From Pseudomonas lini (GTDB taxonomy: Bacteria > Pseudomonadota > Gammaproteobacteria > Pseudomonadales > Pseudomonadaceae), in assembly GCF_964063345.1 (NCBI RefSeq), contig NZ_OZ061318.1, positions 744,001 through 808,000 on the forward strand: a stretch of DNA of 64,000 nt, read 5' to 3'. Positions 21,461 through 45,346 of the stretch are shown piece after piece. Within the stretch, counting starts at the first letter, position 1. Every line of letters starts with the position of its first letter. A program made the translations under genes and the position numbers. The notes under the pieces are model-generated. The model was given only the letters and a program-made list of their open reading frames with translations. It ran no database searches and was not told the origin of the DNA.

Positions 21461-22855
21461 ATGATTTTTATTCTGGCCGCCCTCGGCACACTGGCAATGA
21501 CTTTGTCATTTCGCAGGAGCGTACTGCTCATCCCAGTCTGGACGGTACTGACGCCCAAAGCCTTGCTTCTGCTTGATACACCTTCACTGCCAGCCTTCAG
21601 TCTTTACAAATACCTTTGCCTTGTAATGATAGGTATGTACCTGACAAAGAATTTATTCAAAAAAAGACAACATACCCCTCAAAAGCCTTTCAGTCGTGCG
21701 TTCTATCTAATCCTCATCTCCTCGGCAGCTTCAGCCATATTAAACATAAGCTCTAGCAATTCTGGCTTGCTGACGCTAACAAGCATGGTCATTGAAGTAA
21801 TCATGCCAGTGACTATCTACTGCGAATACCTTGGCAGGCAAACCCCTCAAAAGCTCAATTCACTTATGAGCAAATATATAATTTGCTACTGCGCCCTAGC
21901 AGTATACGGAACCCTCTGCTACTTAATAAACTACAACCCTTATATTGAATTCATTAACTCTACCACTCATACAGGCCGCATCATTGCTCAAACCTATGCA
22001 GAAACCTTACGCGGTATCCGGGCACAAGGCACAATTTCGCACCCCATCACCTATGGCGCACTTATTGTAATGATGCTGCTCACTTACTACACAGTGAAGC
22101 TCAAAAAAGCGAAGCTCAGCCTCAAAGATTATCTAAAAATCGGCTTGGCCACGACTATAATTATTGGAGGAGCGCTATTCACAAACTCTAGAACCCCACT
22201 TATTTTATTCGCGGTTCCGCTTATAATACTTGCACTCAGCCAAAGTGCAGCAAAATCCTTAAAATACACACTAACCTTTTCCTTGATTTTCGTTACTCTT
22301 TTTTCCACCTCCGAGCTATTTAGAGATAAAGTACTATCCGTTGCAAACATCTTTGATTCCAATCTCGGCGAAGACATGAATGGCTCCGACTTAACCATGC
22401 GCGGCGCACAGTTTGCAGCTTCCGCCCGTCATTTTTTTAATTCTCCACTTGTCGGAGGCGGCCTTGATGCAACTCGCAACATTGTATCCTCAGGCCTCGA
22501 TCCAGATCTTTTCAATACTGAAAGCATCGTATTCCGCTTGATGATTGACCAGGGCACTCTTGGCCTCATTAGTTATGCTGCATTCTTCTTTTTACTTTAT
22601 ATCAAGGTCGCTCGAAACATCCAACGAGAGTCTGCTCGGCGCATGTATCTAGGAATGGTGATTGGCTATATTACATTTACAATATCCACCGGCCTCATTG
22701 ACACATTACAGAATGCGCTATTCATGATTTGCGCACTCTATTATATATTTAAGTTTGAACCCAATAAAAATCACTCTATCAAACCGAGACCTACCCTGCT
22801 CCAGGGTGACCATCTTGGAATAATTTCGCCAAAAAACCACGTAATGGCTTCCTAA
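21461..22855 (+). CDS. O-antigen ligase/Wzy-like polysaccharide polymerase
   Basis: A 464-residue protein with about ten to twelve hydrophobic segments and a large loop in its second half, the layout of Wzy polymerases and WaaL ligases. The loop contains GSDLTMRGAQFAASARHFF and GGGLDATRNIVSSGLD, followed by FRLMIDQGTLGLISYAAFF, similar to the Wzy_C pattern. In this locus (Wzx, Wzc, Wza present) a polymerase role is the most likely. Codon use is AT-rich. It is followed after 12 bases by an acyltransferase gene. Confidence 0.82.
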   Translation: MIFILAALGTLAMTLSFRRSVLLIPVWTVLTPKALLLLDTPSLPAFSLYKYLCLVMIGMYLTKNLFKKRQHTPQKPFSRAFYLILISSAASAILNISSSNSGLLTLTSMVIEVIMPVTIYCEYLGRQTPQKLNSLMSKYIICYCALAVYGTLCYLINYNPYIEFINSTTHTGRIIAQTYAETLRGIRAQGTISHPITYGALIVMMLLTYYTVKLKKAKLSLKDYLKIGLATTIIIGGALFTNSRTPLILFAVPLIILALSQSAAKSLKYTLTFSLIFVTLFSTSELFRDKVLSVANIFDSNLGEDMNGSDLTMRGAQFAASARHFFNSPLVGGGLDATRNIVSSGLDPDLFNTESIVFRLMIDQGTLGLISYAAFFFLLYIKVARNIQRESARRMYLGMVIGYITFTISTGLIDTLQNALFMICALYYIFKFEPNKNHSIKPRPTLLQGDHLGIISPKNHVMAS

Positions 22856-22867
22856 TAGGCTTCCAAA

Positions 22868-24040
22868 ATGACAGTTATCGCAGCGCTACTACTGCTATAC
22901 ACACTATCAATAGCATTATTAAACAAGCTATTCAGCTACTCCACATTACTTACTCAACAAACGCTAGAGCGCTCCTCACCATTAGATGCGCTTCGAGGAA
23001 TCCTTGCAACATCAGTAGTGTGCCACCACTTCATCACCACCTACTATTGGAAAACAACTGGAATTTGGACACGCCCTGATAGCGATCTATTAAACAACCT
23101 AGGCGCTGTCCCCGTTTCATTATTCTTCATGATCACCGGATTTCTTTTTCTAGGGAAAACTTATGAGTCATCGCCAAACTGGACCAAATTATTCAGTTCC
23201 CGCGTGCGCCGTATCATGCCGCTTTATTTATTTGTGCTCGCGGCACTTATCCTTACCAGCCTTATCAAAACAGAATTCCAAATGGTTCACTTCAGCGTAT
23301 TAGCAAAAGAGACACTGAAATGGCTAATTTTCTTTGGGGCATCATTTAATGGATTCCAGGATAGCATCCGAATGACTGCTGGAGCTCACTGGACCTTAGG
23401 TTACGAGTGGATTTTCTATCTAACACTTCCACTAATAGCTATCTTATTCCGAAAAAAAAGCCCAATAACCTACTTAATACTGTCATTATCCACCCTAGCA
23501 TTAGTGGCGCTCGGGCTTCATAACAACCTCATTAAACCTGGTCTTTTCCAGCTATTTTTTTTCGGATTCATTCCGATTCTAATCAAAAATCATCTGCCTC
23601 ACGCAGTCCCTTTGTTGCAAGGAAAATGTGCAGCATTTATTGCCACAATATTAATTGCAGCCGCACTCTTTCAACATGAAGAATATTCAACATTCCAAAT
23701 GCTATTGCTCGCAGTTCCATTCGCTATCATCAGCCTTGGAAACGACCTATTTGGCTTACTGAAACATCACGGACTTAAATCTCTCGGAGAAGTAAGCTAT
23801 AGCATTTATCTTACTCACGGATTAATACTTTATTGGGCATTTTCGACATTCAACATTTTTGATTTTTCAAAAACCGGGATTCTGACATTTGTCGCACTTC
23901 TCCCTATCGCACTAGTCGTAGTGTCAGGCACATCTGTCGTCACTTACTTATTCATCGAAAAGCCATTTATAGCACCAAATAAAAACAAGAAAAAACCCAT
24001 CTCCCAGTCACTGAGCACTGCTGAACCCACTAACACCTAG
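22868..24040 (+). CDS. Membrane acyltransferase, AT3 family (second)
   Basis: A 390-residue acyltransferase-3 protein. A hydrophobic leader helix precedes the family core SSPLDALRGILATSVVCHHF with the conserved His, GAVPVSLFFMITGFLFLGK, SRVRRIMPLYLFVL, HWTLGYEWIFYL and GEVSYSIYLTHGLILYW near the C-terminus. It differs from the gene at 20062, so the polymer could carry two acyl substituents. It lies between the polymerase-like and the GH99-like genes on the plus strand, probably in one transcript. Confidence 0.9.
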   Translation: MTVIAALLLLYTLSIALLNKLFSYSTLLTQQTLERSSPLDALRGILATSVVCHHFITTYYWKTTGIWTRPDSDLLNNLGAVPVSLFFMITGFLFLGKTYESSPNWTKLFSSRVRRIMPLYLFVLAALILTSLIKTEFQMVHFSVLAKETLKWLIFFGASFNGFQDSIRMTAGAHWTLGYEWIFYLTLPLIAILFRKKSPITYLILSLSTLALVALGLHNNLIKPGLFQLFFFGFIPILIKNHLPHAVPLLQGKCAAFIATILIAAALFQHEEYSTFQMLLLAVPFAIISLGNDLFGLLKHHGLKSLGEVSYSIYLTHGLILYWAFSTFNIFDFSKTGILTFVALLPIALVVVSGTSVVTYLFIEKPFIAPNKNKKKPISQSLSTAEPTNT

Positions 24041-24056
24041 GACTTACGGTGCCATT

Positions 24057-25103
24057 TTGAAAAAGCTACTAGTTGCTTCATTTCTATCCCTGATATCTTC
24101 CACCAGCTATGCTATTGACGTCGGAGTCTACTATTACCCCGGCTGGAAAAGGCCTGATGTAGATGGCTGGGCGAAAATCAGAGCGCACCCCGAACGAGAA
24201 CCGCTTCTAGGATGGTATACGGAAGGGTCGGATGAGGTGACGAGAAGTCACCTACAATGGATGGAAAAATACGGGATAAACTTCATTGCCTACGATTGGT
24301 ATTGGGATCAAGGAACAGGCGTAAAAAACCGCACTTACGCTATAGACTCATACATAAGAAATGCTAAGGACTACAACGTAGAATTTGCTCTATTATGGGC
24401 AAACCATACGAACACTCCGGAAAGCCTGTCACAGTTTGATGAAATAGTTAATTACTGGATATCCAACTACTTCAAAAACCCGAAATACAAAAAAATCGAC
24501 GACAAGCCTGTAGTTTATATATTCTCTTCAGACATGCTAAGCAAAGATTCAGAGAAATTTGGTTCATCCTCAAAAAAACTACTAACGAGAGCGCGTAAGC
24601 TAGCAAAAAAATCTGGACTTAACGGAATCTTTTTCATTGGGGCGTCAGGTTCAAAAAAAGACTCACTAACACTTGAGCTACCAAATCAAATGTATGATGC
24701 AGTTAGCGCCTATAACTATCAGTACGGACCGTCAAAAACTCCAGCGATTCGCACTCTATCCAAAAGCTATTCGGAGCTGATGGATGGCTACTCCCAATCT
24801 TGGAACTTTACGTTGAAAACAAGCCCCTTACCTTACGTCATCCCCGTGACTTCGGGGTGGGATAGAAGTCCTTGGGGTGGTAGCAGCGATCCAGCGCACG
24901 ACAACTCCTACAGCACCCCCGAGGAGTTTTCAGAGCATTTATCCAGGGCAAAATCAGAACTTCTTGGCAACCCCAAAAAAACGCTAAACACAATAATTGT
25001 TTGTTGCTGGAATGAGTTCGGGGAAGGCTCTTATATTGAACCCACTAAGAAATTTGGATTTGACTATCTTGAGCAAATACATAAAGTCCTAAAAACCCAA
25101 TAG
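24057..25103 (+). CDS. Secreted GH99-like (WbsX-type) glycoside hydrolase family protein
   Basis: 348 residues starting at TTG 24057, with a clear signal peptide (KKLLVASFLSLISSTSYA). The mature part has the GH99-like/WbsX pattern: VGVYYYPGWKRPDVDGW at the start, WMEKYGINFIAYDWYW, KPVVYIFSSDM, and near the end VCCWNEFGEGSYIEPT with a candidate catalytic Glu. GH99 enzymes are endo-acting on mannose-containing glycans; WbsX-like members occur in polysaccharide loci, where they may trim or edit the polymer in the periplasm. That role is inferred. A weak hairpin (AACTGT...ACAGTT, 25114-25131) follows. Confidence 0.8.
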   Translation: MKKLLVASFLSLISSTSYAIDVGVYYYPGWKRPDVDGWAKIRAHPEREPLLGWYTEGSDEVTRSHLQWMEKYGINFIAYDWYWDQGTGVKNRTYAIDSYIRNAKDYNVEFALLWANHTNTPESLSQFDEIVNYWISNYFKNPKYKKIDDKPVVYIFSSDMLSKDSEKFGSSSKKLLTRARKLAKKSGLNGIFFIGASGSKKDSLTLELPNQMYDAVSAYNYQYGPSKTPAIRTLSKSYSELMDGYSQSWNFTLKTSPLPYVIPVTSGWDRSPWGGSSDPAHDNSYSTPEEFSEHLSRAKSELLGNPKKTLNTIIVCCWNEFGEGSYIEPTKKFGFDYLEQIHKVLKTQ

Positions 25104-31171: not shown

Positions 31172-31711
31172 TCATTCCCCACTCAACACAGCTCGCAAGC
31201 GTGGATTACGCAGGTCTTTTTCCGAGAGTTGAGGCGACTCCAACGGCCAGGCAATGCCCAGCTCCGGGTCATTCCAGAGCAGACCTCCCTCGTCTTCGGG
31301 ATAATACAGATCGGTGCATTTGTATTGAAAATCGGCGATATCACTGAGCACACAGAAACCGTGGGCATAACCCGGCGGCACCCATAGCTGAAGATGGTTG
31401 TCAGCCGTCAACTTGACGCCCACATGTTCACCACAAGTGGGGGATTCTGGATTGATGTCCACCACCACGTCGTACACCGCACCTTGAGTGACCCGCACCA
31501 ACTTGCCCTGGGGCCGGGTCTTTTGGAAGTGCAAACCACGCAGCACGCCATACTGCGAGCGCGAGTGATTGTCCTGGACGAAAGGCAATTCGATGCCGGC
31601 GTCGCGATAACGCTCCTGGTGATAACTCTCGAGAAAAAACCCGCGGGCATCGCCGAAGATTTTAGGCTCGATGATCAGTACACCGGGCAACCGGGTATTG
31701 ATGACATTCAT
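31172..31711 (-). CDS. rfbC: dTDP-4-dehydrorhamnose 3,5-epimerase
   Basis: 179 residues, the normal length for RmlC. Family motifs are [40 protein letters not shown] with the catalytic His, and [15 protein letters not shown]. It epimerises dTDP-4-keto-6-deoxyglucose at C3 and C5 on the way to dTDP-L-rhamnose. Its ATG overlaps the rfbA stop by ATGA. It is the last gene of the long leftward operon. Confidence 0.96.
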
Positions 31712-32586
31712 TTCGCGGGCTCCGTATTCAGCACCCGCGCCAGATATTGGCCGTAACCGGTTTTGTGTAACGCGGTGGCTTGTTTATCGAGTTCCGCGGC
31801 CGACAACCAACCCTGGTGGTACGCCACCTCCTCCAGACATGCCACTTTCAAGCCCTGACGCGCTTCGATGGTCTGGACGAAATGCCCGGCCTCCATCAAC
31901 GAATCATGGGTCCCGGTGTCCAGCCAGGCAAAACCACGCCCCAGCACGCTGACGTGCAGATCTCCGCGCTCCAGGTAGGCGTTGTTCACGTCCGTGATTT
32001 CGAGCTCGCCACGGATCGAAGGTTTGACTTGCTTTGCAATGCGCACCACGTCTTTATCGTAGAAATACAAGCCGGTGACAGCATGGTCGGACTTCGGATG
32101 TTTTGGCTTCTCTTCAATCGAGATCGCCTTGCCGTTATCGTCGAACTCGACAACGCCAAAACGCTCCGGATCACTGACTCGATAACCGAAAACGGTGGCA
32201 CCAGTCTGTCGTTGCGACGCTTCACGCAGCAAGGCGCTGAAGCCGTAACCGTAGAAGATGTTGTCGCCCAGAATCAGCGCCACATTACTGTCGCCGATAA
32301 AATCCTCGCCGATCAGGAAGGCTTGGGCCAGACCATCGGGAGAAGGTTGTTCGGCATAACTGAGTTCAATGCCGAAAGAAGAGCCATCACCCAACAAGTT
32401 CTGGAAGTTGGGCAAGTCCTGCGGCGTGGAAATAATCAATATCTCGCGAATGCCCGCCAGCATTAATACCGACAGCGGATAATAAATCATCGGCTTGTCG
32501 TAGACCGGCAGCAGCTGTTTGGATACACCACGGGTAATAGGATGCAAGCGAGTGCCGGAGCCTCCCGCCAGAATGATGCCTTTCAT
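31708..32586 (-). CDS. rfbA: Glucose-1-phosphate thymidylyltransferase
   Basis: 292 residues with the nucleotidyltransferase signature [40 protein letters not shown], the GDNIFYG segment and [20 protein letters not shown]. It makes dTDP-glucose from dTTP and glucose-1-phosphate, the first step to dTDP-rhamnose. AAGGGAA lies upstream of the ATG. It is 45 bases downstream of rfbB and coupled to rfbC. Confidence 0.97.
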
Positions 32587-32631: not shown

Positions 32632-33699
32632 TCAACCGATATGGCCAAGACGCTCAGACCGGTACTGTCCGTTGAGTATCCGTTGCCACCACCCTTGATG
32701 ATCCAGATACCACTGAACCGTTTTGCGTAGGCCGCTTTCAAAGGTTTCCTGTGGACGCCAACCGAGTTCACGCTCGATCTTGCTCGCATCGATGGCGTAA
32801 CGAAGATCGTGCCCGGGGCGGTCGGTGACAAAGGTGATCAGTTCCTTGTAAGAGCCCAGCTCTTCATCGCGGGGGCGCAGCTCATCGAGTAGCTCGCAGA
32901 TGGTTTCCACTACTTGCAGATTGCGCTTCTCGTTGTGCCCGCCGATGTTGTAGGTTTCGCCCACGGTGCCGCGCGACACCACTTCGAACAGCGCTCGGGC
33001 ATGGTCCTCGACAAACAGCCAGTCGCGGATCTGCGAGCCATCGCCATACACCGGCAGCGGCTTGCCGTGGATGGCATTGAGAATCACGTGGGGGATCAGC
33101 TTCTCGGGGAAGTGGAAGGGCCCATAGTTGTTCGAGCAGTTGGTAACTAACACCGGCAGACCATATGTGCGGTGCCAGGCGCGCACCAAGTGGTCGGAGC
33201 CGGCCTTGGACGCCGAGTACGGTGAGCTTGGCTCGTAAGGCGTGGTCTCGGTGAACAGATCGTCGGTGCCTTCCAGGTCGCCATATACTTCATCGGTGGA
33301 GATATGGTGGAAGCGAAAGCCCTGTTTCCGTTCCGCTGCCAGTCCCGACCAATAGCGGCGGCTGGCCTCCAACATGCTGTAGGTACCAACGATGTTGGTC
33401 TGGATGAAATCCGACGGGCTATCGATGGAACGGTCCACATGGGACTCGGCCGCAAGGTGCATCACCGCATCGGGCTGGAAACGCGCGAACAGTTCGTGCA
33501 GCGCTTCGGTGTCGCAGATATCCACCTGCTGGAATTCATACCGGGGACTGCCCGCCACCGACGCCAGGGATTCGGTATTGCCGGCGTAGGTGAGTTTGTC
33601 AATATTGAGCACACTCACATCGGTGTTGTCGATCAGATGGCGAATGACGGCAGAGCCGATAAAACCGGCACCGCCGGTGACAATAATACGTTGGGTCAC
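32632..33699 (-). CDS. rfbB: dTDP-glucose 4,6-dehydratase
   Basis: 355 residues of the short-chain dehydrogenase family. The NAD-binding motif is [12 protein letters not shown], the catalytic region is [11 protein letters not shown], and the YxxxK pair is in [11 protein letters not shown]. The start is placed at GTG 33699: AAGGAG lies 9 bases upstream and the GTG overlaps the stop of the upstream glycosyltransferase (GTGA). An in-frame ATG at 33723 lies inside the upstream gene and is less likely. It is the second step of dTDP-rhamnose synthesis. Confidence 0.96.
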
Positions 33700-34817
33700 T
33701 TGCTGTACTCCTTCGGGTACCACTGGATCAGTAATTTTTCATATTGGGAAAGGATGTTTTCCCAGGTGAACTTTTCGTTGAAGCGGCGGGTGCTTTCAGC
33801 CTTCATCGCCGCGATCAAATGGTTGTGGTCATCGCGCAGGTACTTCTCGAACAACTTCGCACAGTCGTGCTCGTCGTCGAAGTACACCGCTGCATCACCG
33901 GCAACCCAACGGTTGAAATGGTTGTTATGGGCAATCACCGAGCAGCCAGCGCCCAATGCCTCCACCAGCGAAGGGTTGGTGCCCCCTACTTGATGGCCAT
34001 GGATGTAAAAGCGGCTGAAAAACCGCAGCGCCCGGACCACCGCCTCCTCATAGATAGCGCCGGGGAAGATCACTTCCTCGCCGGCCGCGTCCATCACCCG
34101 CTTGTGGTACTCGTTCTTCTCTGGCGTGAAGTTGCCCAGCACCACCAACTTATGGTTACGGCGCTTGCTGCTGAAGGCCTTGACGACCTGCAGAAAGGAG
34201 TTCTCCGGCTCCGGCCGGGCAATAACCACCGAGAAGCCGTGGGGCTCCAGGCCATAACCGGCCAGGGCGACCGGGTCTGCCTCGTGTACCCGGTCCCCGC
34301 CATAGGGGATCATGGTGACCTTCGAATCCTTGACCCGGGTAGCCAGGTGATCCCTGATTTTCGGGTGGTCGGCCACCAAGTGGTTGCCGATCCAGCAACC
34401 CGCCCGCTCGTTCAGCCAGAACCAGGTTTTCGCCACCAGTCCCCACTTCTCCCGCCGCCATTCGATGCCATCCATATTGATGACATTGGTCTGGCCCTTG
34501 ATCCGCTGCAGAATATTGAACGCCGCCGTGTTGTAGCCGAGGGTCAGAAACAATCCCTTCTGGCCCAGCGCATGGACGGTGGCCTTCCAGTCGAAAAACA
34601 CCGTGCCCGCCACGCCGGTATTGGCGATCGGGATATGAATTCGATGAACACCCTTCCATTCACTGGTCGATATACCGCCGGAACCCTCTTCCTGGCAGTA
34701 GACAGTGACTTTCCAGCCCTGCTTGACCAAGTAGAGAGAGAGCTTTTCGGCGAAGGTTTCAAAACCGCCATGTTTGGCGGGGACGCCGCGGATGCCGAGG
34801 ATATAGAGGTTTTTCAT
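33696..34817 (-). CDS. Glycosyltransferase (DUF1972/GT4, rhamnosyltransferase-like)
   Basis: 373 residues from ATG 34817 ([20 protein letters not shown]). The opening [19 protein letters not shown] is typical of DUF1972-type GT4 enzymes found next to rml genes, and the C-terminal half has the GT-B donor region [20 protein letters not shown] and [20 protein letters not shown]. It is expected to transfer a sugar, plausibly rhamnose because rfbBAC follow, to the lipid-linked repeat at the cytoplasmic face. Just upstream lies a nine-base tandem repeat (34912-34990) in the gap to the preceding gene. Confidence 0.9.
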
Positions 34818-34911
34818 AGAGGCGCTTTTTGGTTCTTTCAATGTAATGGGTTCTCAGAGTTACCTGAAATTTTTAACGTGCTTTTGATCTATTCTAAATA
34901 TTGAAAAAAAA

Positions 34912-35033: not shown

Positions 35034-36137
35034 TTAATATGAATTTTCTAGCGTTGAATTTATGTGTTCTTTATAGCTTTTTAATGAAAATTTCTTGTAA
35101 TAAGTATCCAGTGCACACTTGCTCAGCTTTTCGTACAGTGGGCTGCTAGGCGGAGGAAGTTTTAGCAGGACATCCTCAAGGCTGCGGTGGTTGGCAGGGA
35201 TGAAGAGAAAACCATCTCGTTCGTGGTTAACGATCTCCACCAGACCACCATGGCCTGCAGCTATCACTGGTTTTCCGACGGAGTACGCTTCGATCGCCAC
35301 TCGACCGAACGGCTCCGGCTTCGTGGAGGGGACAACAACATAACTTGCCCATTGAAAGTGCTCGGTTGGATCCGAGCAAAAAGGGAAAAACTCGACGTTG
35401 TCAGAGATCCCATATGAGTTTACTTTTTCGATTAAATCCTTTTCCAGGTATTCGTATCCCTCGAAAGGGCTACCCACTATCCTTATGTGAAGGTCATCTC
35501 CGGCGTTATTGGCTATCTTTCCAATTACATCAATGAAAAAGTCTTGCCCTTTCCATGTGTTTATCCTACCGATCAAAAGTAGATTCTTGGAGTCTCTTTC
35601 AACACGCACCGACGGGACGCTGTAAAGAGGGGCTACACCATTATAAATCACTGTTCCCGGAAGATTAAAAGCGGCTTTAGTAGCCTCGGAATTGAATATT
35701 AATTTTGCACCTGAGAACCGTAAAAGCAAACGGAAGATCACAATGAGTTTTTTGTCTGGAATTTCTCGAATGTGGCAAAAGAAACTTTTCTTCGAAAATC
35801 TATAAAATCCAGCAGCAAGCAGTGCGGATACCATAACGGTCGTGTTTATGTATACCGCACTAAACTCCTTATATTTTTTTGCGTAATACAAGGTTGCCTT
35901 AATTAGTTCTATGCCATAGCTGACTGGGGTTTTCAGCTTCTGTTTTCTCAGTATTCCGTAGGGGTAATACTCTATTTCGGCACCTATATTTTTAACTAGA
36001 GCAGAGAGTTCCCCAAGAAAAGGCAGGATGCAATAGATCTTCTTTTTAGCGGAAATCGATTCAATCGCCGTAAGGAAACTTCGATCTGAACCGTACAGTT
36101 CGGAGCTTTGATGAAGACAAAGTATTTCATCTCGCAT
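35034..36137 (-). CDS. Glycosyltransferase family 4
   Basis: 367 residues of GT-B fold, GT4 type. The donor-binding half contains NLLLIGRINTWKGQDFFIDV, VEFFPFCSDPTEHFQWASYV and the signature EPFGRVAIEAYSVGKPVIAA followed by GHGGLVEIV. The acceptor half is more variable. An AAGGAAA site precedes ATG 36137, which lies inside the 3' end of the GT2 gene (11-base overlap). Codon use is AT-rich compared with rfbBAC, fitting a horizontally acquired, polymer-specific block. The sugar transferred is unknown. Confidence 0.9.
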   Translation of the reverse strand: MRDEILCLHQSSELYGSDRSFLTAIESISAKKKIYCILPFLGELSALVKNIGAEIEYYPYGILRKQKLKTPVSYGIELIKATLYYAKKYKEFSAVYINTTVMVSALLAAGFYRFSKKSFFCHIREIPDKKLIVIFRLLLRFSGAKLIFNSEATKAAFNLPGTVIYNGVAPLYSVPSVRVERDSKNLLLIGRINTWKGQDFFIDVIGKIANNAGDDLHIRIVGSPFEGYEYLEKDLIEKVNSYGISDNVEFFPFCSDPTEHFQWASYVVVPSTKPEPFGRVAIEAYSVGKPVIAAGHGGLVEIVNHERDGFLFIPANHRSLEDVLLKLPPPSSPLYEKLSKCALDTYYKKFSLKSYKEHINSTLENSY

Positions 36138-37005
36138 AGGATTTCCTTGGGATCAGTATGTGCAATGAAAGTAACATCAGGGATAAGTACCTGATGTTTT
36201 TTTCCTTAAGGCATGTGTTTAGGCTAAACAACAGCACATATAATGATATTTTAAGTTTGTGATGCTTGACATAATCGAAAACCAGCGGCCGCGACAGTAG
36301 TAGATTCCGGAAGCGCTGAACCTTTTTGGTATAAGCTTGTCCGCTCTCTCGGAGTGCCGAGCTATGAGGAATTGATGTTTTGAGAATGAATATTTCTCTG
36401 TATATATTTGCGTAATCGATGAAAAATCGTGTATCAACACCATAGAAATTCAAGCGCTCGTCAAACTTCAGCCCCCGCGACAACGCTTCTTTAGATATGA
36501 CAGTCCCACTCATCATTGCCACTATTTTTTTGGACGGGACGGGACCTGTCGCCAGGCTTTGCAAGTTCAACGCTCTTCCGCGAACACCCTTTATGGTTCC
36601 AGGTGATATAAGGCTGTTATTGAACAAAATTTGAGGCACTGCTACTGGCACATTACTTCTGAAAAACACATCCAAACTGGATATATAATCATTAGTTATG
36701 CTGGAGTCGTCGTCCAAAACTATAAAGTAGTCCGAATCTGCATTTCGGGAGATTAGTGCGTTGTATATCTTTGAAAGGGGCTCGTTATTTCCACTGTGGT
36801 GATACGTTACTTCACCAGGCAGCGTGGGGATTGATGCCTCCCCAAACCCCTGTTCAGAGTTATCCCAAATTGAAAACTTTGGAAGAATTCTTGCCGTTTG
36901 AAAATCCAGGGTGGCTAGGGACTTGAGCGTAGTGGTTAAACCAGGACTGGTAGAATAAACCACAACAAGGAAGTTAACCTGTACTTGGCTCTGTGTGTGC
37001 GTCAT
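36127..37005 (-). CDS. Glycosyltransferase family 2
   Basis: 292 residues of GT-A fold. Family features are VNFLVVVYSTSPGLTTTLKS at the N-terminus, NEPLSKIYNALISRN and the metal-binding DxD region FIVLDDDSS. The middle contains MMSGTVISKEALSRGLKFDE, as in GT2 enzymes that add rhamnose or related sugars. It overlaps the following GT4 gene by 11 bases and follows the flippase gene by 19 bases. The exact linkage is unknown. Confidence 0.88.
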   Translation of the reverse strand: MTHTQSQVQVNFLVVVYSTSPGLTTTLKSLATLDFQTARILPKFSIWDNSEQGFGEASIPTLPGEVTYHHSGNNEPLSKIYNALISRNADSDYFIVLDDDSSITNDYISSLDVFFRSNVPVAVPQILFNNSLISPGTIKGVRGRALNLQSLATGPVPSKKIVAMMSGTVISKEALSRGLKFDERLNFYGVDTRFFIDYANIYREIFILKTSIPHSSALRESGQAYTKKVQRFRNLLLSRPLVFDYVKHHKLKISLYVLLFSLNTCLKEKNIRYLSLMLLSLHILIPRKSYAR

Positions 37006-37024: not shown

Positions 37025-38326
37025 CTACGATTGAATTGAACTAATGGCCATTGTCGATGTGCGCCGATTAAGGTCTATTGTGGCTAGAGGAAATAGAATT
37101 GCATTAATGCACGCAATGGTACTCCCGATGGCAACTGCAGCACCCAATACACCCCAGCCCCCTAAAAGCCAATAAGTCACGAAGGGAGACAGTGCGACAG
37201 TCAGATACAGTGCTACGTTAAGATGGTAGATATTTGAGGCATTCTGGTAATAATATCCGCATACCGACGTAGAGCAATTTACAAAATAGCCCAACAATAC
37301 GATGTAGCATGCAACGTGGAAATTTTCCGGTATTTGCCCACTAAACCTTACTAAGGCCAGCAAAAAAACCAGATAAATACAGGAGAAGGAAGTTAATTTC
37401 TTTGTGTTGGACCAGAATATTTTTTTTATGGCTTGATAATTGGATCGACTAGAAAACTCTGAAAACTGAGGCGCTGATATAGAATTTATTGATACTGAAA
37501 TAAAGGTTGAAAGCATGGCCAGTCTTTGAAGTATGTTAAAGACCGAAGCAAATGAAGCACCTAAAAACAAGGAGGCTAATAGAAAAGGTAACCAGCCCAC
37601 TAACTGGGTTCCTATCGTTGCGGATGCAAACTTCAGTTGTGAGGCTAGAATTTTATTCAGTGGCTTCTTAGATAGCGCAGATATCGGAGCCCAAGTCATG
37701 CCTGCTTTTTTTGCAAGCACAACAGAGACAATCATGTAAATTAAAATGGAGGCATAGAACGAGACTACAATGGTTGTGTCGGAAGCTAACGATAGAAAAT
37801 CAAAGTGAGTGGCGAGTTTAATCGATAGATAAAAAGCCAAAAAAACCCAGGGCTGAATGACATTGATGCCGAGGATTTGAATGATGGTCTTATGCCTGGC
37901 TTGATATATAAAAAAAATCGTATTGGCGGCAGAAAACAGAGGGATCAATAAAAATATAAGAAGTATAGTCGAGTGGTCACTGCTCGCGCTTGAGATGCTA
38001 CTCCAGTGTTGGACGTAGAAACCTCCAATAAAGTATGTAATCGGGATCAGTATTGAACCCATCAGAAGGCTAACTACTACAGATTGATTGAAGCAATCCT
38101 GCACTTCCTCGCTTGACTGTTTATAATAATTTCTTACCAAATGGATGTCCGATCCGAAGCGCGCCATAACTGCGGAGATCTGAAATATAGTGTACGCAAC
38201 AAGAAATAGCCCTGCCAAATCACTGCTTTCTATTTTTAGAATAACAATATTTGCAAGCAGCACTGCTATGGCACCGACAATTCGAATGCATAGCAAGTGA
38301 AGTGATTTCGATTTTAGTATGTTCAT
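37025..38326 (-). CDS. Wzx-type flippase (oligosaccharide translocase)
   Basis: 433 residues with about twelve hydrophobic helices spread over the whole length (for example IVGAIAVLLANIVILKI near the N-terminus and VALYLTVALSPFVTYWLLG near the C-terminus), the layout of the MATE/PST superfamily. It sits between ugd and two glycosyltransferase genes, where a Wzx is expected. It should move the lipid-linked repeat across the inner membrane. AT-rich. The sequence has little motif conservation, so the call rests on topology and context. Confidence 0.83.
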   Translation of the reverse strand: MNILKSKSLHLLCIRIVGAIAVLLANIVILKIESSDLAGLFLVAYTIFQISAVMARFGSDIHLVRNYYKQSSEEVQDCFNQSVVVSLLMGSILIPITYFIGGFYVQHWSSISSASSDHSTILLIFLLIPLFSAANTIFFIYQARHKTIIQILGINVIQPWVFLAFYLSIKLATHFDFLSLASDTTIVVSFYASILIYMIVSVVLAKKAGMTWAPISALSKKPLNKILASQLKFASATIGTQLVGWLPFLLASLFLGASFASVFNILQRLAMLSTFISVSINSISAPQFSEFSSRSNYQAIKKIFWSNTKKLTSFSCIYLVFLLALVRFSGQIPENFHVACYIVLLGYFVNCSTSVCGYYYQNASNIYHLNVALYLTVALSPFVTYWLLGGWGVLGAAVAIGSTIACINAILFPLATIDLNRRTSTMAISSIQS

Positions 38327-38496: not shown

Positions 38497-39822
38497 CTAC
38501 TGGCGGCCTATGGAGTAGTACTTAATACCTTTGTCTTTAAGCTTTTGAGGGTTGAAAAGGTTTCTTCCGTCAAATATTACAGGCTCACGAAGTTGGCTTT
38601 TAATTTGATCCAGATCGGGCGCCTTGAAAGCCTGCCATTCGGTAATAATGATTAAGGCATCGCTTTCTTTTAAGGTCTCTTCTTTGGTTCCGCACAGACT
38701 CAAGTCATCACGATTACTGTAAATTCGTTGAGTTTCTTCCATTGCCTCCGGATCATACGCTCTAACCTTGGCGCCGTTTTTCCATAGAGCCTCAATCAGT
38801 ACGCGACTGGGTGCTTCACGCATATCATCAGTATTCGGTTTAAAACTTAAGCCCCAAAGAGCGAATGTTTTTCCTGCAATATTTCCACCGTAGTGGTTAA
38901 TTATTTTTCTAAAAATCACACTTTTCTGGTCGTTATTTCTTGCTTCTACCGACTTCAGCAGTGTTGCGTCAAAGTCTAGCTGCTCGGAAGTTTTAATGAG
39001 GGCTTTTACATCCTTGGGAAAACACGATCCACCATAGCCGGATCCCGCATAGATGAAGTGATAGCCAATTCTTGGATCTGAACCTATGCCTTTTCGTACC
39101 ATCTCGATATCAGCTCCGAGCATTTCTGACAAACTAGAAATCTCATTCATAAAGCTGATTTTTGTTGCAAGCATGCAGTTAGCTGCATACTTCGTCAGCT
39201 CAGCGCTGCGAATATCCATGACAATTATTTTTTCGTGATTTCGGTTGAACGGAGCATAGAGGTCGCGTATGACTGCTTCTGTGCTAGCCTGCTCTGTTCC
39301 GACAATTATCCGATCCGGACGCATGCAGTCAGATACTGCAGAACCTTCTTTTAAGAATTCCGGATTCGATGCGACGTCAAATGAGAGATCCGTGCGGCCA
39401 CGTTGAGAAAGTACGCTCGCAACTCGGTCCCTCACTTTATCGGCCGTCCCAACAGGAACGGTAGATTTGTTAATGATAATACAATCGCTTTCAATGTTAC
39501 TTGCTATCGTTTCGGCAACCGCCAGCACATATTTCAGGTCCGCAGATCCGTCCTCATCAGGAGGTGTCCCTACCGCAATGAATTGAACCTCTCCATGTTT
39601 CACTGCAGCTATAGCATCTGTAGTGAATTTCAATCTTCCAGCGCTGTAGTTCTCTTTGACTAAGACTTCCAGCCCAGGCTCATAGATTGGAATAATCCCC
39701 TGCTCCAGGTTTCTAACTTTTTGCTCATCTATGTCCACACAAATTACATCGTGGCCAATCTCGGCTAGAACCGCCCCTTGAACAAGACCTACGTAGCCAA
39801 TTCCGAATACAGTGACTTTCAT
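38497..39822 (-). CDS. ugd: UDP-glucose 6-dehydrogenase
   Basis: 441 residues from ATG 39822 ([20 protein letters not shown]), chosen over upstream ATG 39870 because it matches the family start and follows AGGTAA. NAD-binding GIGYVG is at the N-terminus; [17 protein letters not shown] and the catalytic Cys in [16 protein letters not shown] follow, with the C-terminal UDP-binding domain [17 protein letters not shown]. It oxidises UDP-glucose to UDP-glucuronate, so the polymer probably contains glucuronic acid. It is the first gene of the long leftward operon, whose leader carries an ops element. Confidence 0.96.
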
Positions 39823-39955
39823 GATGATTACCTGTGATACAAACGTTAGTTTTTGGCTCACTCCGTCCACTTGGAAACCTAAGAAATCCTAGGTTCCTTA
39901 ATAACCTTAAAGTTCGACGGCAAGAATGATCGATGAGGAAAGAGGCTGCACAAGA

Positions 39956-39967
39956 CACGCTACCGCC
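39956..39967 (-). promoter_or_regulatory. ops element (RfaH recruitment site)
   Basis: The minus strand reads GGCGGTAGCGTG, a perfect match to the 12-base ops core known from E. coli, preceded by CCTGG as in JUMPstart sequences. It lies 134 bases upstream of the ugd start within a 308-base intergenic region, in the correct orientation. In known systems RNA polymerase pauses here and RfaH binds the exposed non-template strand, preventing termination in long polysaccharide operons. An rfaH gene lies at 44840. Confidence 0.88.
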
Positions 39968-40130
39968 CCAGGATTTTTCGTCATCTTCCTCAGGACGTGG
40001 TGTTTCCATGAAATATCGGGATCATGCCTATTGGCTAATGATCCGGCGCAGCAATAAACGATAAGAACTCAAGAACAACAATAACGCCGTCAAAAACCTA
40101 AACTTATGACGCGACCTTGTTCAATGCTCA

Positions 40131-42356
40131 TCAATTTTTGTCGGAGGCGTAGTCATAGTGGTAATAACCATAATCACTGTAGCCATATTTATTGGAGGCC
40201 TTTTTCTCCACACCGTTAAAAATCGCACCTTTAATGGCAACGCCATTCTGGGAAAACCGGCGGACCGTCAACTCGATTTCTTTCGCCGGGTTCAGGCCAT
40301 AGCGCGTCACAATCAGATTGGTTCCAGACTGGCGTCCGACGATCGCCGCGTCTGTCACCGCCAATAGTGGCGGCGTATCGAGAATCACCAGATCGTATTG
40401 CTTACTCACCTGCTCCAATAACGCGCTGAAATTGGCGTGCATCAGCAATTCGGAAGGATTGGGCGGGATTTGGCCTCGACTGACAAAATCGAAGTTGTCG
40501 ATTCCGGTCTTATGGATAGCGGTGGCCACATCGCAGCGCCGGGCCAGGATATCGGAAAGCCCATTGTCTGAAGAAGTACCTAACACTTTGTGCAGATAGC
40601 CTTTGCGCATGTCGACGTCGATCAACAATACCCGCAACCCGGTTTGTGCTATCACCACCGCGAGGTTGACCGACACGAACGTTTTACCTACCTGAGGGCT
40701 CGGCCCGGAAATCATCAGGCGATTGTTGTCGGCCTCATGCATGGCGAAGTGCAGACTGGTCCGCAAACTGCGCAATGCCTCAATTGCCAGATCGGTGGGA
40801 TGACTGATGGCCAGCAAAGTAGAACCTGCGGAACGCCCTCGTCCGCGGGAGACTTTGTCTTCTTCGGTTTTCTGCAGAGTGCTATAAGGAATCGAAGCGT
40901 AGACCGGCAACCCAAGTTGCTCGATGGCTTCCGGGCTTTCCAGCCCCCGGTTCAACGCCTTGCGTACCAGCACCAGGGCCACCGCCAGGAAGCCGCCAAG
41001 AATTGTGGCGATCAGCACGATCATGGCTTTTTTCGGTTTGACCGGCTTGAGAAAATTGACGTCCGCAGTGTCGATCAGACGCACGTTACCGACGGTGCCC
41101 GCGCGCATCACATCCAGTTCCTGAGACTTGTTCAGCAACTGGGTATAAATAGCCGTACCGACTTCTACATCCCGGGTAAGGTTCAGCAATTCTTGTTGGG
41201 TGGAGGGAAGGCTCTCCACCTTGGACGCCAAACTTTTCTGCTTGCTGCTCAACTCACCAATCTGGGTCAACAATGCACGATAGGCGGGATGTTGGCGGGT
41301 GAATTTTCGGTCCATCTCGGCTTGCTGCAATTTCAACTCTGAGATGCTGGTATCAAGCCCGACAATCTGATCGAGAATGGCTTTGGTTTCGAGCGTGATG
41401 TCCACGGACTTGCTGCGCGTCTGGTATTCATTCAAGGCATTCCCGGCTTTTTCCAGGTCCTTCTTGACCACCGGAAGTTGTTCTTTGAGAAACGCCAGGC
41501 TCTGCGCTGCCTCAGCTGAAGTGCGCTCTACGTTTTGCCGCACATAAATAGCGGCAATCTCATTGAGTGTTTTTATGGCCTGGTCCGGATCTGTACTTTC
41601 CAGCGCCAGCCCGATCATGCCAGACTCTTTTCCGCGCTCGGCTATATCCAAATCCTCTTGGTAGTCGAGGATGCTGGTCAGGCGAGAATTGCGGATGATT
41701 CTGAAACGAGTTCCAGGATTGGCGTGCATTTCTTCTATCTGAAACGCAACGCCATTTTGTTCGAAAAGTTGTCCAGCCTGGCTGGCTGCCAATACGTTGT
41801 CGTCTTCGTCCACCAGGGTGTAATGACCATTTTCACCCGTGGTCAGGGTCAACTTCTTGCCCAATTGCGAGTCGGGAAGATCCAGTTTGAATATCTTCAG
41901 CGACTCCCCTCCCCAGGCGAAACTGTTCAACCCCAACAAAGGGTCGGCTATTTCACCGGGATTTTTATTTTGGAATCGACGCGCCAGGAACTCACCGACC
42001 ACCGGGAGGTACATCGGTTGTATGACGATATCAAGCTTCAGGTTATCGACCGTCTTGCCGATCACCGCACGAGACTTGATCAGCTCGATCTCAGTCGCAG
42101 AAGGCGACTCTTTTCCCAACATGCTGCTGACATCGGAGAAGCCCAACAAATCGTTCTTCTTCGCCTCAACCTGCAACAACGCAGTCGCCTGGTATACCGG
42201 CGTCGCCAGCACCGCGAACGCTACACCAGCCACCATAAATGCGCCGGTAACCGCGGCAATCAGCCATTTATGGTCGATAAGTGTTCCAAACAAGCCGAGA
42301 AGATCAATCTCGTCATTGTCGTCGTCCCGCACATTAACTACCGGTGCTTGCTGCAT
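40131..42356 (-). CDS. Wzc-type tyrosine autokinase / polysaccharide co-polymerase
   Basis: 741 residues, the full Wzc layout. There is a Wzz domain with a first transmembrane helix (about 31-52), a periplasmic coiled-coil region (280-400), a second helix (444-464) and the BY-kinase domain: Walker A SGPSPQVGKTF at 550, Walker A' VLLIDVDMRKG at 577, Walker B VILDTPP at 657. The C-terminal tyrosine cluster YGYSDYGYYHYDY (724-736) is the autophosphorylation tail. It controls chain length and export with the Wza-like channel. It lies 45 bases downstream of the phosphatase gene. Confidence 0.96.
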   Translation of the reverse strand: MQQAPVVNVRDDDNDEIDLLGLFGTLIDHKWLIAAVTGAFMVAGVAFAVLATPVYQATALLQVEAKKNDLLGFSDVSSMLGKESPSATEIELIKSRAVIGKTVDNLKLDIVIQPMYLPVVGEFLARRFQNKNPGEIADPLLGLNSFAWGGESLKIFKLDLPDSQLGKKLTLTTGENGHYTLVDEDDNVLAASQAGQLFEQNGVAFQIEEMHANPGTRFRIIRNSRLTSILDYQEDLDIAERGKESGMIGLALESTDPDQAIKTLNEIAAIYVRQNVERTSAEAAQSLAFLKEQLPVVKKDLEKAGNALNEYQTRSKSVDITLETKAILDQIVGLDTSISELKLQQAEMDRKFTRQHPAYRALLTQIGELSSKQKSLASKVESLPSTQQELLNLTRDVEVGTAIYTQLLNKSQELDVMRAGTVGNVRLIDTADVNFLKPVKPKKAMIVLIATILGGFLAVALVLVRKALNRGLESPEAIEQLGLPVYASIPYSTLQKTEEDKVSRGRGRSAGSTLLAISHPTDLAIEALRSLRTSLHFAMHEADNNRLMISGPSPQVGKTFVSVNLAVVIAQTGLRVLLIDVDMRKGYLHKVLGTSSDNGLSDILARRCDVATAIHKTGIDNFDFVSRGQIPPNPSELLMHANFSALLEQVSKQYDLVILDTPPLLAVTDAAIVGRQSGTNLIVTRYGLNPAKEIELTVRRFSQNGVAIKGAIFNGVEKKASNKYGYSDYGYYHYDYASDKN

Positions 42357-42401
42357 AAGTCGGATTCTTTGCCTGTATTACGATTCAAAAAGGAGTGGCC
42401 A

Positions 42402-42842
42402 TCAGCGCGCCAGGCGCTGTGCCCATGCGAGTACGGCTTCTTCGATCAACGCATAAGCGTGCACAAAAGCAGGTTTGCCTTGACGGTAGGGGTCGCTGAT
42501 TTCGCGATCGTCTTGCCATTTGCCCAGTAGCAACACTTTGCCTCGCGCTTCGGGGGCAATGTTGAGTACTCCGCTGACATGCCGTCGCTCCATCACCAGT
42601 ATCAAGTCCGCCTCGCTGACGGCTTGAGATGTGAGTTGAACGGCTTCGTGCTCATGGGGCAGATGACCGTGCTCCGTGAGTACGGCGTGTGCCGTCGACT
42701 CGATGGGTTTGCCCGCGAGGGCGGCAAGGCCCGCCGAGCTGACCTCGATATCGGAATGAACGAGTGCCCCGCGCAGCAGATGCTCCGCGGTGGGGCTGCG
42801 GCAAATATTGCCGACGCAGACAATCAAAACCCTTTTAAGCAA
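42402..42842 (-). CDS. Low-molecular-weight protein-tyrosine phosphatase (Wzb type)
   Basis: 146 residues from TTG 42842 (start followed by LKRVLIVCVG), with GGGGAA upstream; the frame is open to an ATG at 42896 but that would add ~18 residues unlike the family. The phosphate loop CVGNICRS has the catalytic Cys and Arg, and the general acid Asp is in DPYRQG. Wzb-type enzymes dephosphorylate the tyrosine tail of Wzc, allowing cycles of polymerisation. It is the first gene of a wzb-wzc unit. Confidence 0.9.
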   Translation of the reverse strand: MLKRVLIVCVGNICRSPTAEHLLRGALVHSDIEVSSAGLAALAGKPIESTAHAVLTEHGHLPHEHEAVQLTSQAVSEADLILVMERRHVSGVLNIAPEARGKVLLLGKWQDDREISDPYRQGKPAFVHAYALIEEAVLAWAQRLAR

Positions 42843-43103
42843 GATAACATTCCCCGTCTTGTCAACATTGGCGGTGACATAGCACTTGCCGAACATAAGA
42901 GCTTTAAACTACGAATGAGGCCGGGCATTGATCAACCCGGTAAATGCAGCTGCAATTTTAAAAACAATCAGTGCGTATTTATTACCATGACACTTGAACA
43001 GCCCCCAACTTTTTCTTCAGACAAAAAATAACATTTCACTCTTTGAACGCTGAAAATAACAGTTCAAAAATTTATCCAGACGATTTATAACAATTACCGT
43101 TTT

Positions 43104-43115
43104 CCCGCTACCGTT
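43104..43115 (-). promoter_or_regulatory. Possible ops-like site in the wzb-wzc leader
   Basis: The minus strand reads AACGGTAGCGGG, 9 of 12 matches to GGCGGTAGCGTG including the GGTAGCG core, 262 bases before the wzb start. A second ACGGTA lies just downstream. The 659-base region 42843-43501 has no recognisable gene and should also hold the galU promoter. The site is a candidate only. Confidence 0.35.
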
Positions 43116-43501
43116 CAATCTAAATTACACCAAAATAGAGAGCAGCTAATATATAGCTGTTCCGTTAGTGCATTGCCAGGGCGTCAGACATTCGGTTAGA
43201 AGTTGGGTATAGAGATGCCTTGGGCAATAACTTTGTTTACAGCGGGTTACGTCAAGAGCATGCCGTGGAATAACCAGGGATGCTCGCCGGCCAACCGACC
43301 GCACGATATTTCTCTCTGCCCTCGCCTTGCGCGAAACATGGCGTACAGGCCTTTCGCTGCCCCCGCAGCGTTGCCAACATTTTTCACGAGTGATCGAGCC
43401 ATTTAGAGCCCGCACTCTCCAGCGTGCCGGTTCCGACAGCCTAGTCGAACCTTTCCTACTGCCATTAGCCATTCCATCTGTCTACTTTCAAGGACGTTTC
43501 C

Positions 43502-44335
43502 ATGATTCGTAAATGCCTATTCCCCGCTGCCGGCTATGGGACCCGCTTTTTGCCCGCCACCAAGGCCATGCCGAAGGAGATGCTGCCGATCGTCAATAAG
43601 CCGCTGATCCAGTACGCCGTCGAGGAAGCGCGCGACGCCGGCCTGCAACATATGGCCATCGTCACCGGCCGGGGCAAGCGAGCGCTGGAGGATCATTTCG
43701 ATGTCAGCTTCGAGCTGGAACACCAGATTCGTGGCACCGATAAGGAGCGATTCCTGGAAGGCACTCGTGAGCTGATCGATAACTGCACTTTCTCCTACAC
43801 CCGTCAGGTGGAGATGAAGGGCCTGGGGCACGCCATTCTCAGCGGTCGTTCGTTGATCGGTGATGAGCCATTCGCCGTGGTGCTGGCCGATGACCTGTGT
43901 CTGAATCTGGAAGGCGATGGCGTACTGGCGCAAATGCTCAAGCTCTATGAGCAGTTCCGTTGTTCGATTGTGGCGATTCAGGAAGTACCCCGTGAGCAAA
44001 CTCAGAAGTACGGCGTGATTGCCGGCGAGCTGATTCGCGAGGGTATTTACCGGGTCAACAGCATGGTCGAAAAGCCCCGCCCGGAAGACGCCCCGTCCAA
44101 CCTGGCCATTATCGGTCGCTACATTCTGACCCCCGATATCTTTGACCTGATCGCTGACACCGAGCCTGGCAAGGGCGGTGAAATCCAGATCACCGACGCA
44201 TTGATGAAGCAGGCCCAGAACGGCTGCGTACTGGCTTATCAGTTCAAGGGCCGACGTTTCGATTGCGGTGGCGCCGAAGGTTACATCGAAGCCACCAACT
44301 TCTGTTTCGAGCACCTGCATCAGAACACCTTGTGA
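43502..44335 (+). CDS. galU: UTP-glucose-1-phosphate uridylyltransferase
   Basis: 277 residues with the GalU signature LFPAAGYGTRFLPATKAMPK, EMLPIVNKPLIQYAVEEA, VVLADDLCLN, MVEKPRPEDAPSNLAIIGRY and GRRFDCGGAEGYIEA. It makes UDP-glucose, the substrate of both the initiating transferase at 16568 and ugd. AAGGAC precedes the ATG. It heads a rightward unit with the phosphomannomutase relic and rfaH. Confidence 0.97.
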   Translation: MIRKCLFPAAGYGTRFLPATKAMPKEMLPIVNKPLIQYAVEEARDAGLQHMAIVTGRGKRALEDHFDVSFELEHQIRGTDKERFLEGTRELIDNCTFSYTRQVEMKGLGHAILSGRSLIGDEPFAVVLADDLCLNLEGDGVLAQMLKLYEQFRCSIVAIQEVPREQTQKYGVIAGELIREGIYRVNSMVEKPRPEDAPSNLAIIGRYILTPDIFDLIADTEPGKGGEIQITDALMKQAQNGCVLAYQFKGRRFDCGGAEGYIEATNFCFEHLHQNTL

Positions 44336-44411
44336 CAGCGTTGACCCCAGACAAGCGCGTGCGTTATCGAATCGATTTTTCGGTCTTTATTTCCCTATGG
44401 ACGAAGCCTCT

Positions 44412-44843
44412 ATGAAGACATTGAGCGGTTTCAAGGCAGGTGACAGTCGCCGCCCGTATGGCGCTGACCTTAAGAACAATCTCGCGTACCGCATCGTGCG
44501 CGCCTATGCGTCGGAACTGATCTTTTCCCGTGTGCAGAAACCACCGGTGCTGTTAGTGGAGCGCATCGGTGCGTTCCCCTCCTCCGGGGAAATCCAGCGT
44601 CACGTCAAGGATGGCCCGACGTTGCTGGCGAGCATCAGGCAGCGTTACGCCGCCGACGCCCTCGACATCGACGAGAGCGATGGGCTGAGCCTGGTCTTTG
44701 CCGACTGGCGTCTCAGCTTGCGTCTTCTGGACGATGGTTGCGTGATTTGCCTGACCGTGGAAAGTCGTGGCGACAGCTCGCTCATGCAGCACAAAACCGC
44801 CGAACTACTGGGGCAAATCGATGCAGGGAGGGAATTTGAATGA
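44412..44843 (+). CDS. Internally deleted phosphomannomutase relic
   Basis: 143 residues. The first ~40 follow the N-terminus of ManB/CpsG phosphomannomutases (family: CFKAYDIRG...LNEDIAWRIGRAY; here GFKAGDSRR...LKNNLAYRIVRAY). From about residue 55 the protein follows the C-terminal domain (RIGAFPSSGEI, DGLSLVFADWR, LTVESRGDSSLM). About 300 central residues, including the catalytic phosphoserine and metal-binding loops, are absent. The C-terminal phosphate-binding SNTEP is also replaced (LLDDGC). It cannot be a mutase, yet the frame is open and its stop overlaps the rfaH start (ATGA). ATG 44412 is preferred over 44397. It may persist as a translational coupler or have a new role. Confidence 0.75.
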   Translation: MKTLSGFKAGDSRRPYGADLKNNLAYRIVRAYASELIFSRVQKPPVLLVERIGAFPSSGEIQRHVKDGPTLLASIRQRYAADALDIDESDGLSLVFADWRLSLRLLDDGCVICLTVESRGDSSLMQHKTAELLGQIDAGREFE

Positions 44844-45346
44844 ACGCGATTGCAGAACACGCCGACAAAGCCTGGTACCTGCTTCAGTGCAAACCCAAAC
44901 AGGATGAGCGCGCCGAAGAACATTTACAGCGCCAGGGCTATGCCTGTTTTCGCTCGACCTACCGGCGTGAGCGCGTTTTGCGCGGGCAGCGTCGAGTGAT
45001 CAGTGAGTCTCTGTTTCCGGGTTATCTGTTTATTCAACTGAGCCTTCAGGACAGTTGGGGCCCGCTACGCTCGACCCGCGGCGTTTCGCGCGTCGTCGGG
45101 TTCGGCGGCCAGCCACTGCCGATCCGCGATGCGCTGATCGACGAGCTCCAGGAACGAGACAGCCAGGCGATCGTGACAACGTTGTTGAGACATGGAGATA
45201 CGGTGCGCATCACTGAAGGCCCGTTCTCCGATCTCGAGGCGGTGTTCCTGGCCATGGACGGCGAGGAACGGGTGCTGCTGATGATGAATTTCCTGCAGCG
45301 TGAACAGCACATCAGCCTGCCACTGGCTGGGGTTAACAAGATTTAG
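44840..45346 (+). CDS. rfaH: Transcription antiterminator RfaH (NusG paralogue)
   Basis: 168 residues with an N-terminal NGN domain (AWYLLQCKPKQDERAEEHLQ, RVISESLFPGYLFIQL, STRGVSRVVGFGG) and a C-terminal KOW domain (HGDTVRITEGPFSDLEAVF, VLLMMNFLQRE). The close match in pattern to E. coli RfaH (for example FPxYLF, TRGVS, ITEGxF) favours RfaH over NusG. It binds RNA polymerase at ops sites and suppresses termination. A perfect ops lies in the ugd leader (39956). It is coupled to the preceding gene by ATGA and followed by a strong terminator. Confidence 0.92.
   Translation: MNAIAEHADKAWYLLQCKPKQDERAEEHLQRQGYACFRSTYRRERVLRGQRRVISESLFPGYLFIQLSLQDSWGPLRSTRGVSRVVGFGGQPLPIRDALIDELQERDSQAIVTTLLRHGDTVRITEGPFSDLEAVFLAMDGEERVLLMMNFLQREQHISLPLAGVNKI

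Follow-up and report, generated by a model that had tools for sequence, protein, structure and literature searches.

Whether an RfaH encoded inside a polysaccharide locus acts on an ops element of that same locus is the question raised by a 64,000-nucleotide stretch of the Pseudomonas lini genome (contig NZ_OZ061318.1, positions 744,001 to 808,000; "the window" below), in which a perfect ops element precedes a set of sugar genes and an rfaH gene lies nearby. The locus is very probably a locus-linked RfaH-ops module, in which an ops element within a conserved flank would control an exchangeable cassette. The element, the protein and its residues, their conservation and linkage, the spacing of a hairpin, the edge of the cassette and a step in guanine plus cytosine (GC) content all support this at the level of sequence.

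The ops element and RfaH of the window

An exact copy of the 12-mer GGCGGTAGCGTG occupies 39967-39956 of the minus strand, with CCTGG directly 5' of it and a distance of 134 bases to the ugd start codon (ATG, 39822-39820), just as the initial annotation of this DNA had described it. The window has no other exact copy. With up to two mismatches allowed there are eight similar sites in the window against 6.3 expected, which leaves the exact match, taken together with its context, as the informative one. The host genome has four exact copies. The other three are inside open frames of 528-1004 codons, unlike the window copy, where the longest overlapping open frame is at most 98 codons and which is the only one of the four with leader context. 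It is predicted to be an RNA polymerase pause and RfaH loading site. Its placement in the leader of a ugd operon, as originally proposed, is right as to position and can be refined: the element lies between wzc and ugd, and so may sit within a wzb-wzc-ugd transcript.

The product of the gene at 44840-45346 (plus strand), called RfaH1 here, had been taken for an RfaH orthologue, and it scores above the curated RfaH cut-offs: 173.2 bits against TIGR01955 (equivalog cut-off 144.5) and 141.4 bits against PRK09014 (cut-off 124). Residues 10-157 of its 168 match E. coli RfaH chains. The two proteins have the same residue at K10, R16, H20, R23, Q24, E48, F56, R73, I93, F130 and R138, the last of which is the partner of E48 in autoinhibition. 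The side chains that contact ops are K10, H20, R23 and R73 (PMC5995543), and E48, I93 and F130 hold RfaH in its closed, autoinhibited state (PMC7593976); all of the contact and autoinhibition residues are thus identical in RfaH1. The loop through which NusG contacts Rho, I164-F165-G166, is replaced by L145-I146-N147 in RfaH (PMC7593976), and RfaH1 has F-L-Q there, not I-F-G, the loop being lost here as well. The NusG family of the host genome comprises three genes, encoding NusG, RfaH1 and a second paralogue, RfaH2. Elsewhere in the genus sample described below, E48 is replaced by Q, G or T in the RfaH-like proteins of L074, L079, L108, L109 and L112, and those of L074 and L079 adjoin GGCGGTAGCGTA.

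Conservation of the site and the edge of the cassette

Two collections were compared with the window: a sample of 199 genomes of the genus (genomes and loci are cited by G and L numbers), and 134 named loci encoding relatives, the best 80 of which were kept and which overlap the first set. An element is found within the sequence covered at 75 of the best 80 named loci, in a scan that showed only cores followed by one of six triplets with T at ops position 11, variants without this T being invisible to it. At the 14 loci whose RfaH is at least 86% identical to RfaH1, which include strains of P. farris, P. lini, P. mandelii, P. frederiksbergensis and P. brassicacearum, the exact 12-mer is present in 13, on the opposite strand and 3.9-4.9 kb away; at the fourteenth (L185) the contig ends before the site. 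Conservation among orthologous leaders was what the initial annotation had itself put forward as a test of its reading, and on this evidence the reading stands. Identical or near-identical RfaHs also occur in named Pseudomonas records.

Across the window and the 13 orthologous loci, the ten bases 5' of ops have a mean identity of 0.97, ops itself has 1.00 and the next four bases have 0.41, which makes ops the left edge of the exchanged, GC-poor cassette. An alignment of the window with G083, at 92% identity over 6.9 kb, ends at the last base of ops; beyond it the last glycosyltransferase gene can be aligned at 71%, and from just inside rmlB homology is strong again (86%). With G114 and G183, homology of 82-85% ends near the wzc stop codon and is back, at 87-88%, at rmlB. 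GC content is 0.41-0.46 at 35-40 kb of the window against 0.52-0.58 in the adjoining 31-35 and 40-47 kb. The 3 kb after the element are GC-poorer than the 2 kb before it in 10 of 10 loci arranged like the window (layout A, below) and in 15 of 20 of layout B; L068, unfit for the leader pattern, stands outside this comparison and outside the leader alignment described below. A second GC-poor stretch (0.41-0.44) is located at 20000-25000 of the window, beyond gfc-like export genes.

Linkage of rfaH to ops-type elements in the genus

A protein search at E below 1e-18 placed RfaH-like genes at 77 positions in 72 of the 199 genomes, and up to 20 kb of DNA around each was examined. An element fitting NGCGGTAGCNTN stands at a layout-specific position in 73 of the 77; counted on both strands of all 77 loci, the pattern occurs 100 times and its reversed control 27 times. 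The search of related genomes suggested in the initial annotation thus bears out the pairing of site and gene. The linkage, called notable there, is not special to this locus: ops-type elements accompany rfaH widely across the genus.

Four layouts can be told apart. In layout A, that of the window, rfaH is divergent and the element is on the opposite strand 3.0-4.9 kb away (10/10), each time behind a wzc-size open reading frame (ORF) with a wzc match. In layout B the element is on the same strand, downstream of rfaH and mostly about 0.1 kb behind it (20/21). The exception, L061 of genome G060, has an in-frame stop in rfaH and an adjacent ops changed at base 11, which is among the bases whose change harms E. 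coli RfaH function most (PMC5995543). L111, also of layout B, has an incomplete rfaH, yet keeps GGCGGTAGCATG. Layout C has one or two elements 2.5-8.2 kb upstream of rfaH on the same strand (25/26). Nineteen of these loci, such as L066, L072 and L073, have two pattern-fitting elements 56-119 bases apart, the first usually GGCGGTAGCTTT and the second usually GGCGGTAGCGTG; in L104 the second departs from the pattern. In the one layout C locus whose genes were read (L073), the order is an unassigned ORF, an aminotransferase, a flippase-like protein, a glycosyltransferase, wzb, wzc, a wbqC-like gene, rfaH and further glycosyltransferases, and the tandem elements upstream of rfaH lie within the operon. 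In layout D the rfaH leader itself contains TGCGGTAGCTTT, 225-332 bases 5' of the gene (17/17, including that of RfaH2). A single locus, L047, has its element 6.4 kb downstream of rfaH. No element was found in the locus DNA examined at L108, L113 and L114, the last two of which have an incomplete rfaH.

The four layouts follow the RfaH tree. Over 73 of the 77 proteins (L061 and L111, under 150 amino acids, and L113 and L114, without a layout, were left out) they need four changes, the minimum possible, against a mean of 39.1 when shuffled. C is one clade and D another, while B alone needs three changes. In both C and D, rfaH is downstream of its own element. Five loci (L052, L208, L209, L214 and L225) have a second JUMPstart element 1.4-6.4 kb past the first on the same strand, and in L052 (genome G187) a piece of a second rfaH precedes one of the two.

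Elements away from rfaH

A covariance model, R1, was built from these rfaH-linked leaders and applied to the 199 genomes with strict filters, 31 candidates being scored per genome. At E<=0.01 it matches 40 places in 38 genomes: 33 at rfaH, one behind a wzc-size ORF and six, all weak, elsewhere (G008, G113, G191, G144, G050 and G139). At E<=1e-7 there are 32 places in 31 genomes, all no more than 6.5 kb from an rfaH-like gene, a set that includes the sites used to build the model; the rfaH of G164 has one further R1 match. The 31 genomes with strong matches all belong to the 72 with RfaH, for which the value of 10^-15.9 is descriptive only, the model coming from rfaH-linked sites and the genomes being related. 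The match behind the wzc-size ORF (G132; L290, around 3326) is far from the only RfaH-like match of its genome and is likely a target in trans. A shorter pattern, CYTGGGGCGGTAGCGTG, occurs at 26 places in 25 genomes, 24 of which have RfaH; the exception is G139, where the leader has no 5' arm. Within the search filters the strong matches are at rfaH, with the one likely exception in G132, which suggests RfaHs tied to their own loci and not one regulator serving scattered operons.

The layout D pattern was also tried as a genome-wide marker and proved not to be specific, with 28 places in 27 genomes, 17 at rfaH leaders and 11 elsewhere, and a reversed control that is at least as frequent as judged by eye. 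The claim for layout D therefore rests on the fixed place of the element in 17 of 17 leaders.

The hairpin before ops

Just upstream of the window ops is a JUMPstart-like hairpin (39969-39991, minus strand), with a 5' arm GAGGA (39991-39987), a loop of 13, a 3' arm TCCTG (39973-39969) and a spacer of one base (39968). A stem-loop in JUMPstart has already been reported (PMC2864571). The five-pair stem CAGGA/TCCTG is complete in 58 of 66 distinct aligned leaders of layouts A and B, with a loop of 12 or 13 allowed. Paired cells make up 91.5% in the plain alignment; shuffling gives 87.7%, and sliding by 1-3 columns 21-66%. Cells changed on both sides number 18, a count inflated by kinship, against a shuffled mean of 5.8, and no shuffle equalled it. 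Taken together, covariation support for the hairpin is moderate.

Spacing of the stem was scanned from 0 to 11 bases before the core GCGGTAGC. In A and B leaders the five-pair stem peaks two bases 5' of the core (88%, shuffles 8%), and before the second layout C element, where the arm sequences are unrelated, it stands at the same spacing (80% of 20, against 10% in shuffles). The first C element has its peak at a spacing of 2-3 (76-80% of 25, against 12% in shuffles). The layout D hairpin is weak, at 54% with four pairs at a spacing of five against 20% shuffled. The E. coli galF-rfbB leader, used as a positive control, matches the Rfam JUMPstart family RF01707 (61.1 bits) and has the hairpin-ops spacing of the A and B leaders. 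RF01707 had no match in the window leader up to E=10 and none at the gathering threshold in six related loci, and a scan of the surrounding 10 kb with Rfam gave no meaningful match.

E. coli RNA polymerase pauses at ops U11 (PMC5995543). Counted to this position, the distance from the end of the stem to the RNA 3' end is 12 bases. Such a distance would suit hairpin-assisted pausing, whereas the E. coli ops is described as a backtracked pause (PMC6391919).

RfaH2 and its variant element

RfaH2 is encoded at genome position 6153757 and passes the RfaH cut-off. A variant element, TGCGGTAGCTTTG, is located in the leader of its own gene, about 310 bases 5' of it (L057), and rfaH2 is followed by genes for a beta-barrel protein, wza-like and wzc-like proteins and sugar transferases. 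Changes in DNA-contact residues were considered as the cause of the element variants and are not borne out, Asn20 occurring with both GGCGGTAGCGTG and TGCGGTAGCTTTG; nor does R23Q account for the variant of layout D, as it is found in only part of that layout. It is conceivable, though rather doubtful, that the two paralogues load at different ops forms, RfaH1 at GGCGGTAGCGTG and RfaH2 at TGCGGTAGCTTTG, without cross-action. Each polysaccharide locus would then have a private elongation switch, self-sustaining in layouts C and D, and ops would have a second role as a fixed docking edge, where one cassette could replace another while control persists. In layout C both forms precede one operon, so that a single RfaH may use both.

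Other genes of the locus

Between 39822 and 31172 (8.65 kb) is a row of eight co-directional ORFs, the last of them rmlC, in agreement with the eight polysaccharide genes counted from ugd in the initial annotation, with the reservation that one of them has no family match. All are on the minus strand. The first cassette gene, ugd (38497-39822), encodes UDP-glucose dehydrogenase, and its frame is open also from a GTG at 39870. It is followed by the ORF without a match (433 amino acids, 37025-38326), a wzx or wzy candidate only from its position; a rhamnosyltransferase-like ORF with a weak match (36127-37005); a GT4-like glycosyltransferase (35034-36137); and a DUF1972 glycosyltransferase, Cps2T-like below the cut-off (33696-34841), which can be aligned at 68-71% in three relatives with unrelated genes earlier in the cassette. 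The conserved right side of the cassette consists of rmlB (32632-33723), rmlA (31708-32586) and rmlC (31172-31711).

Upstream of ops and on its strand are the conserved wzc (40131-42356), encoding a BY-kinase, and wzb (42402-42896), encoding a low-molecular-weight tyrosine phosphatase. Divergent from these, on the plus strand, are galU (43502-44335) and a short ORF named pmmC here (44268-44843), which matches only the C-terminal part of the phosphomannomutase CpsG; its stop overlaps the rfaH start, and its true start is unsettled. L039-L041 also have pmmC in this short form (81-89% identical), and close to rfaH in L042-L046 and L050 there is a similar piece (43-57%). Promoter and terminator scans came out at shuffle level overall. 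Among the terminator-like sites is a 14-pair stem followed by a run of T at 30448-30417 (minus strand), just before wza and between the rml and export genes.

Proposed mechanism and alternatives

By analogy with E. coli, pausing, RfaH binding and dependence on RfaH would be expected at the window ops, and the spacing of the genes suggests that the cassette may be co-transcribed with wzb-wzc. RNA polymerase coming from wzb-wzc, or started in the short wzc-ugd gap, would pause at ops. RfaH from the divergent galU-pmmC-rfaH genes would bind the ops hairpin of the non-template strand, open and remain on the polymerase, where it would exclude NusG and Rho and couple polymerase to ribosomes. The outcome would be that the GC-poor ugd-rmlC genes are transcribed to their end. 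Since ops is part of the conserved flank, any incoming sugar cassette would come under the same RfaH control. Of the four layouts, only C and D predict positive feedback.

Several points weigh against this reading. The element searches required the core GCGGTAGC and the layouts were named after inspection. An intact element is lacking at four of the 77 RfaH places (L061, L108, L113 and L114), and there is none within the sequence covered at five of the best 80 named loci. The strict filters and 31 candidates per genome of the R1 search mean that weak sites elsewhere may be missed. A scan of the minus strand in the wzc-ugd gap found no promoter-like site. As to the hairpin, the 66 leaders were selected by the pattern YYYSGK before the core, so that part of the 3' arm was preset; in the window clade the outermost pair is a G.G mismatch, which leaves the window copy with four of five pairs; and only three pairs are changed on both sides, a number equalled by 72 of 500 shuffles, besides the inflation of the both-side cell counts by kinship. 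Folded singly, four leaders gave z values of -0.73 (window), -2.21, -1.76 and 0.12 relative to shuffles, so the window leader folds no better than they do, and only L040 is beyond two standard deviations.

Three other explanations were weighed. That the window 12-mer is a matter of chance might be suggested by its further occurrence under three long open frames of the host genome, but its position, context and linkage are conserved over the genus, which already refutes chance for practical purposes. The ops block could also be kept chiefly as a short homology tract for cassette recombination, any role in elongation being secondary or lost. The homology between the window and G083 stops at the last ops base, identity among the 14 sequences falls right after it, and covariation in the hairpin is only moderate, all as a homology tract would have it. 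Homology alone, however, needs no pairing, and pairing is kept at one spacing despite arm sequences that differ between layouts. In each of the 31 genomes with a strong R1 match an rfaH-like gene is close by, and the locus with an in-frame stop in rfaH (L061) has a changed ops base 11, although L111, with its incomplete rfaH, keeps GGCGGTAGCATG. This makes the homology tract an improbable account of the site.

Slightly less improbable, and still unlikely, is that RfaH2 acts at the window ops instead of, or together with, RfaH1. Its score is above the RfaH cut-off, layout B RfaHs that have Asn20 as it does adjoin the canonical GGCGGTAGCGTG, and in layout C the two ops forms stand before one operon. 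It has an element of its own in its own leader, however, and 7 of the 10 layout A genomes have no second RfaH-like match. A module of RfaH1 and the window ops is preferred to all three.

Relation to known systems

RfaH of E. coli has further JUMPstart/ops targets beyond galF-rfbB. What the window has in common with such leaders and their regulator is the identical ops 12-mer, the hairpin-ops spacing, polysaccharide targets and the contact and autoinhibition residues of the protein. In E. coli, however, rfaH is apart from its targets, while here it is near the site and few other strong sites were found, and the leaders have diverged so far that RF01707 gives no match. The Shewanella CL7 RfaHs, Bacteroides UpxY and Myxococcus TaA are NusG paralogues encoded in their own target operons (PMC7593976). 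Like them, the present loci have a regulator resident at a long operon, for polysaccharide or otherwise, and in layouts C and D rfaH is in the operon that it would control; unlike them, the window rfaH is divergent and outside its target, with the ops 12-mer of E. coli retained. An rfaH gene adjoins lipopolysaccharide loci in Azotobacter (PMC4465626) and the polysaccharide genes for EPS273-M in Pseudomonas stutzeri 273 (PMC5532660), with no ops or JUMPstart element described in the portions of these reports available. Envelope genes are overrepresented beside RfaH clusters CL2 to CL8 (PMC7593976). A literature search, judged by titles and the openings of abstracts, returned no published study of ops sites in Pseudomonas.

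The mode of RfaH recruitment is known in detail from E. coli only (PMC7593976). These Pseudomonas genomes offer a large natural series of RfaHs, most of them with an evident candidate target adjacent, variant and tandem elements included. RfaH recognition, the insulation of paralogues from one another and self-activation become directly testable in them, and the ops site is at the same time the exact edge of the exchanged surface-polysaccharide genes.

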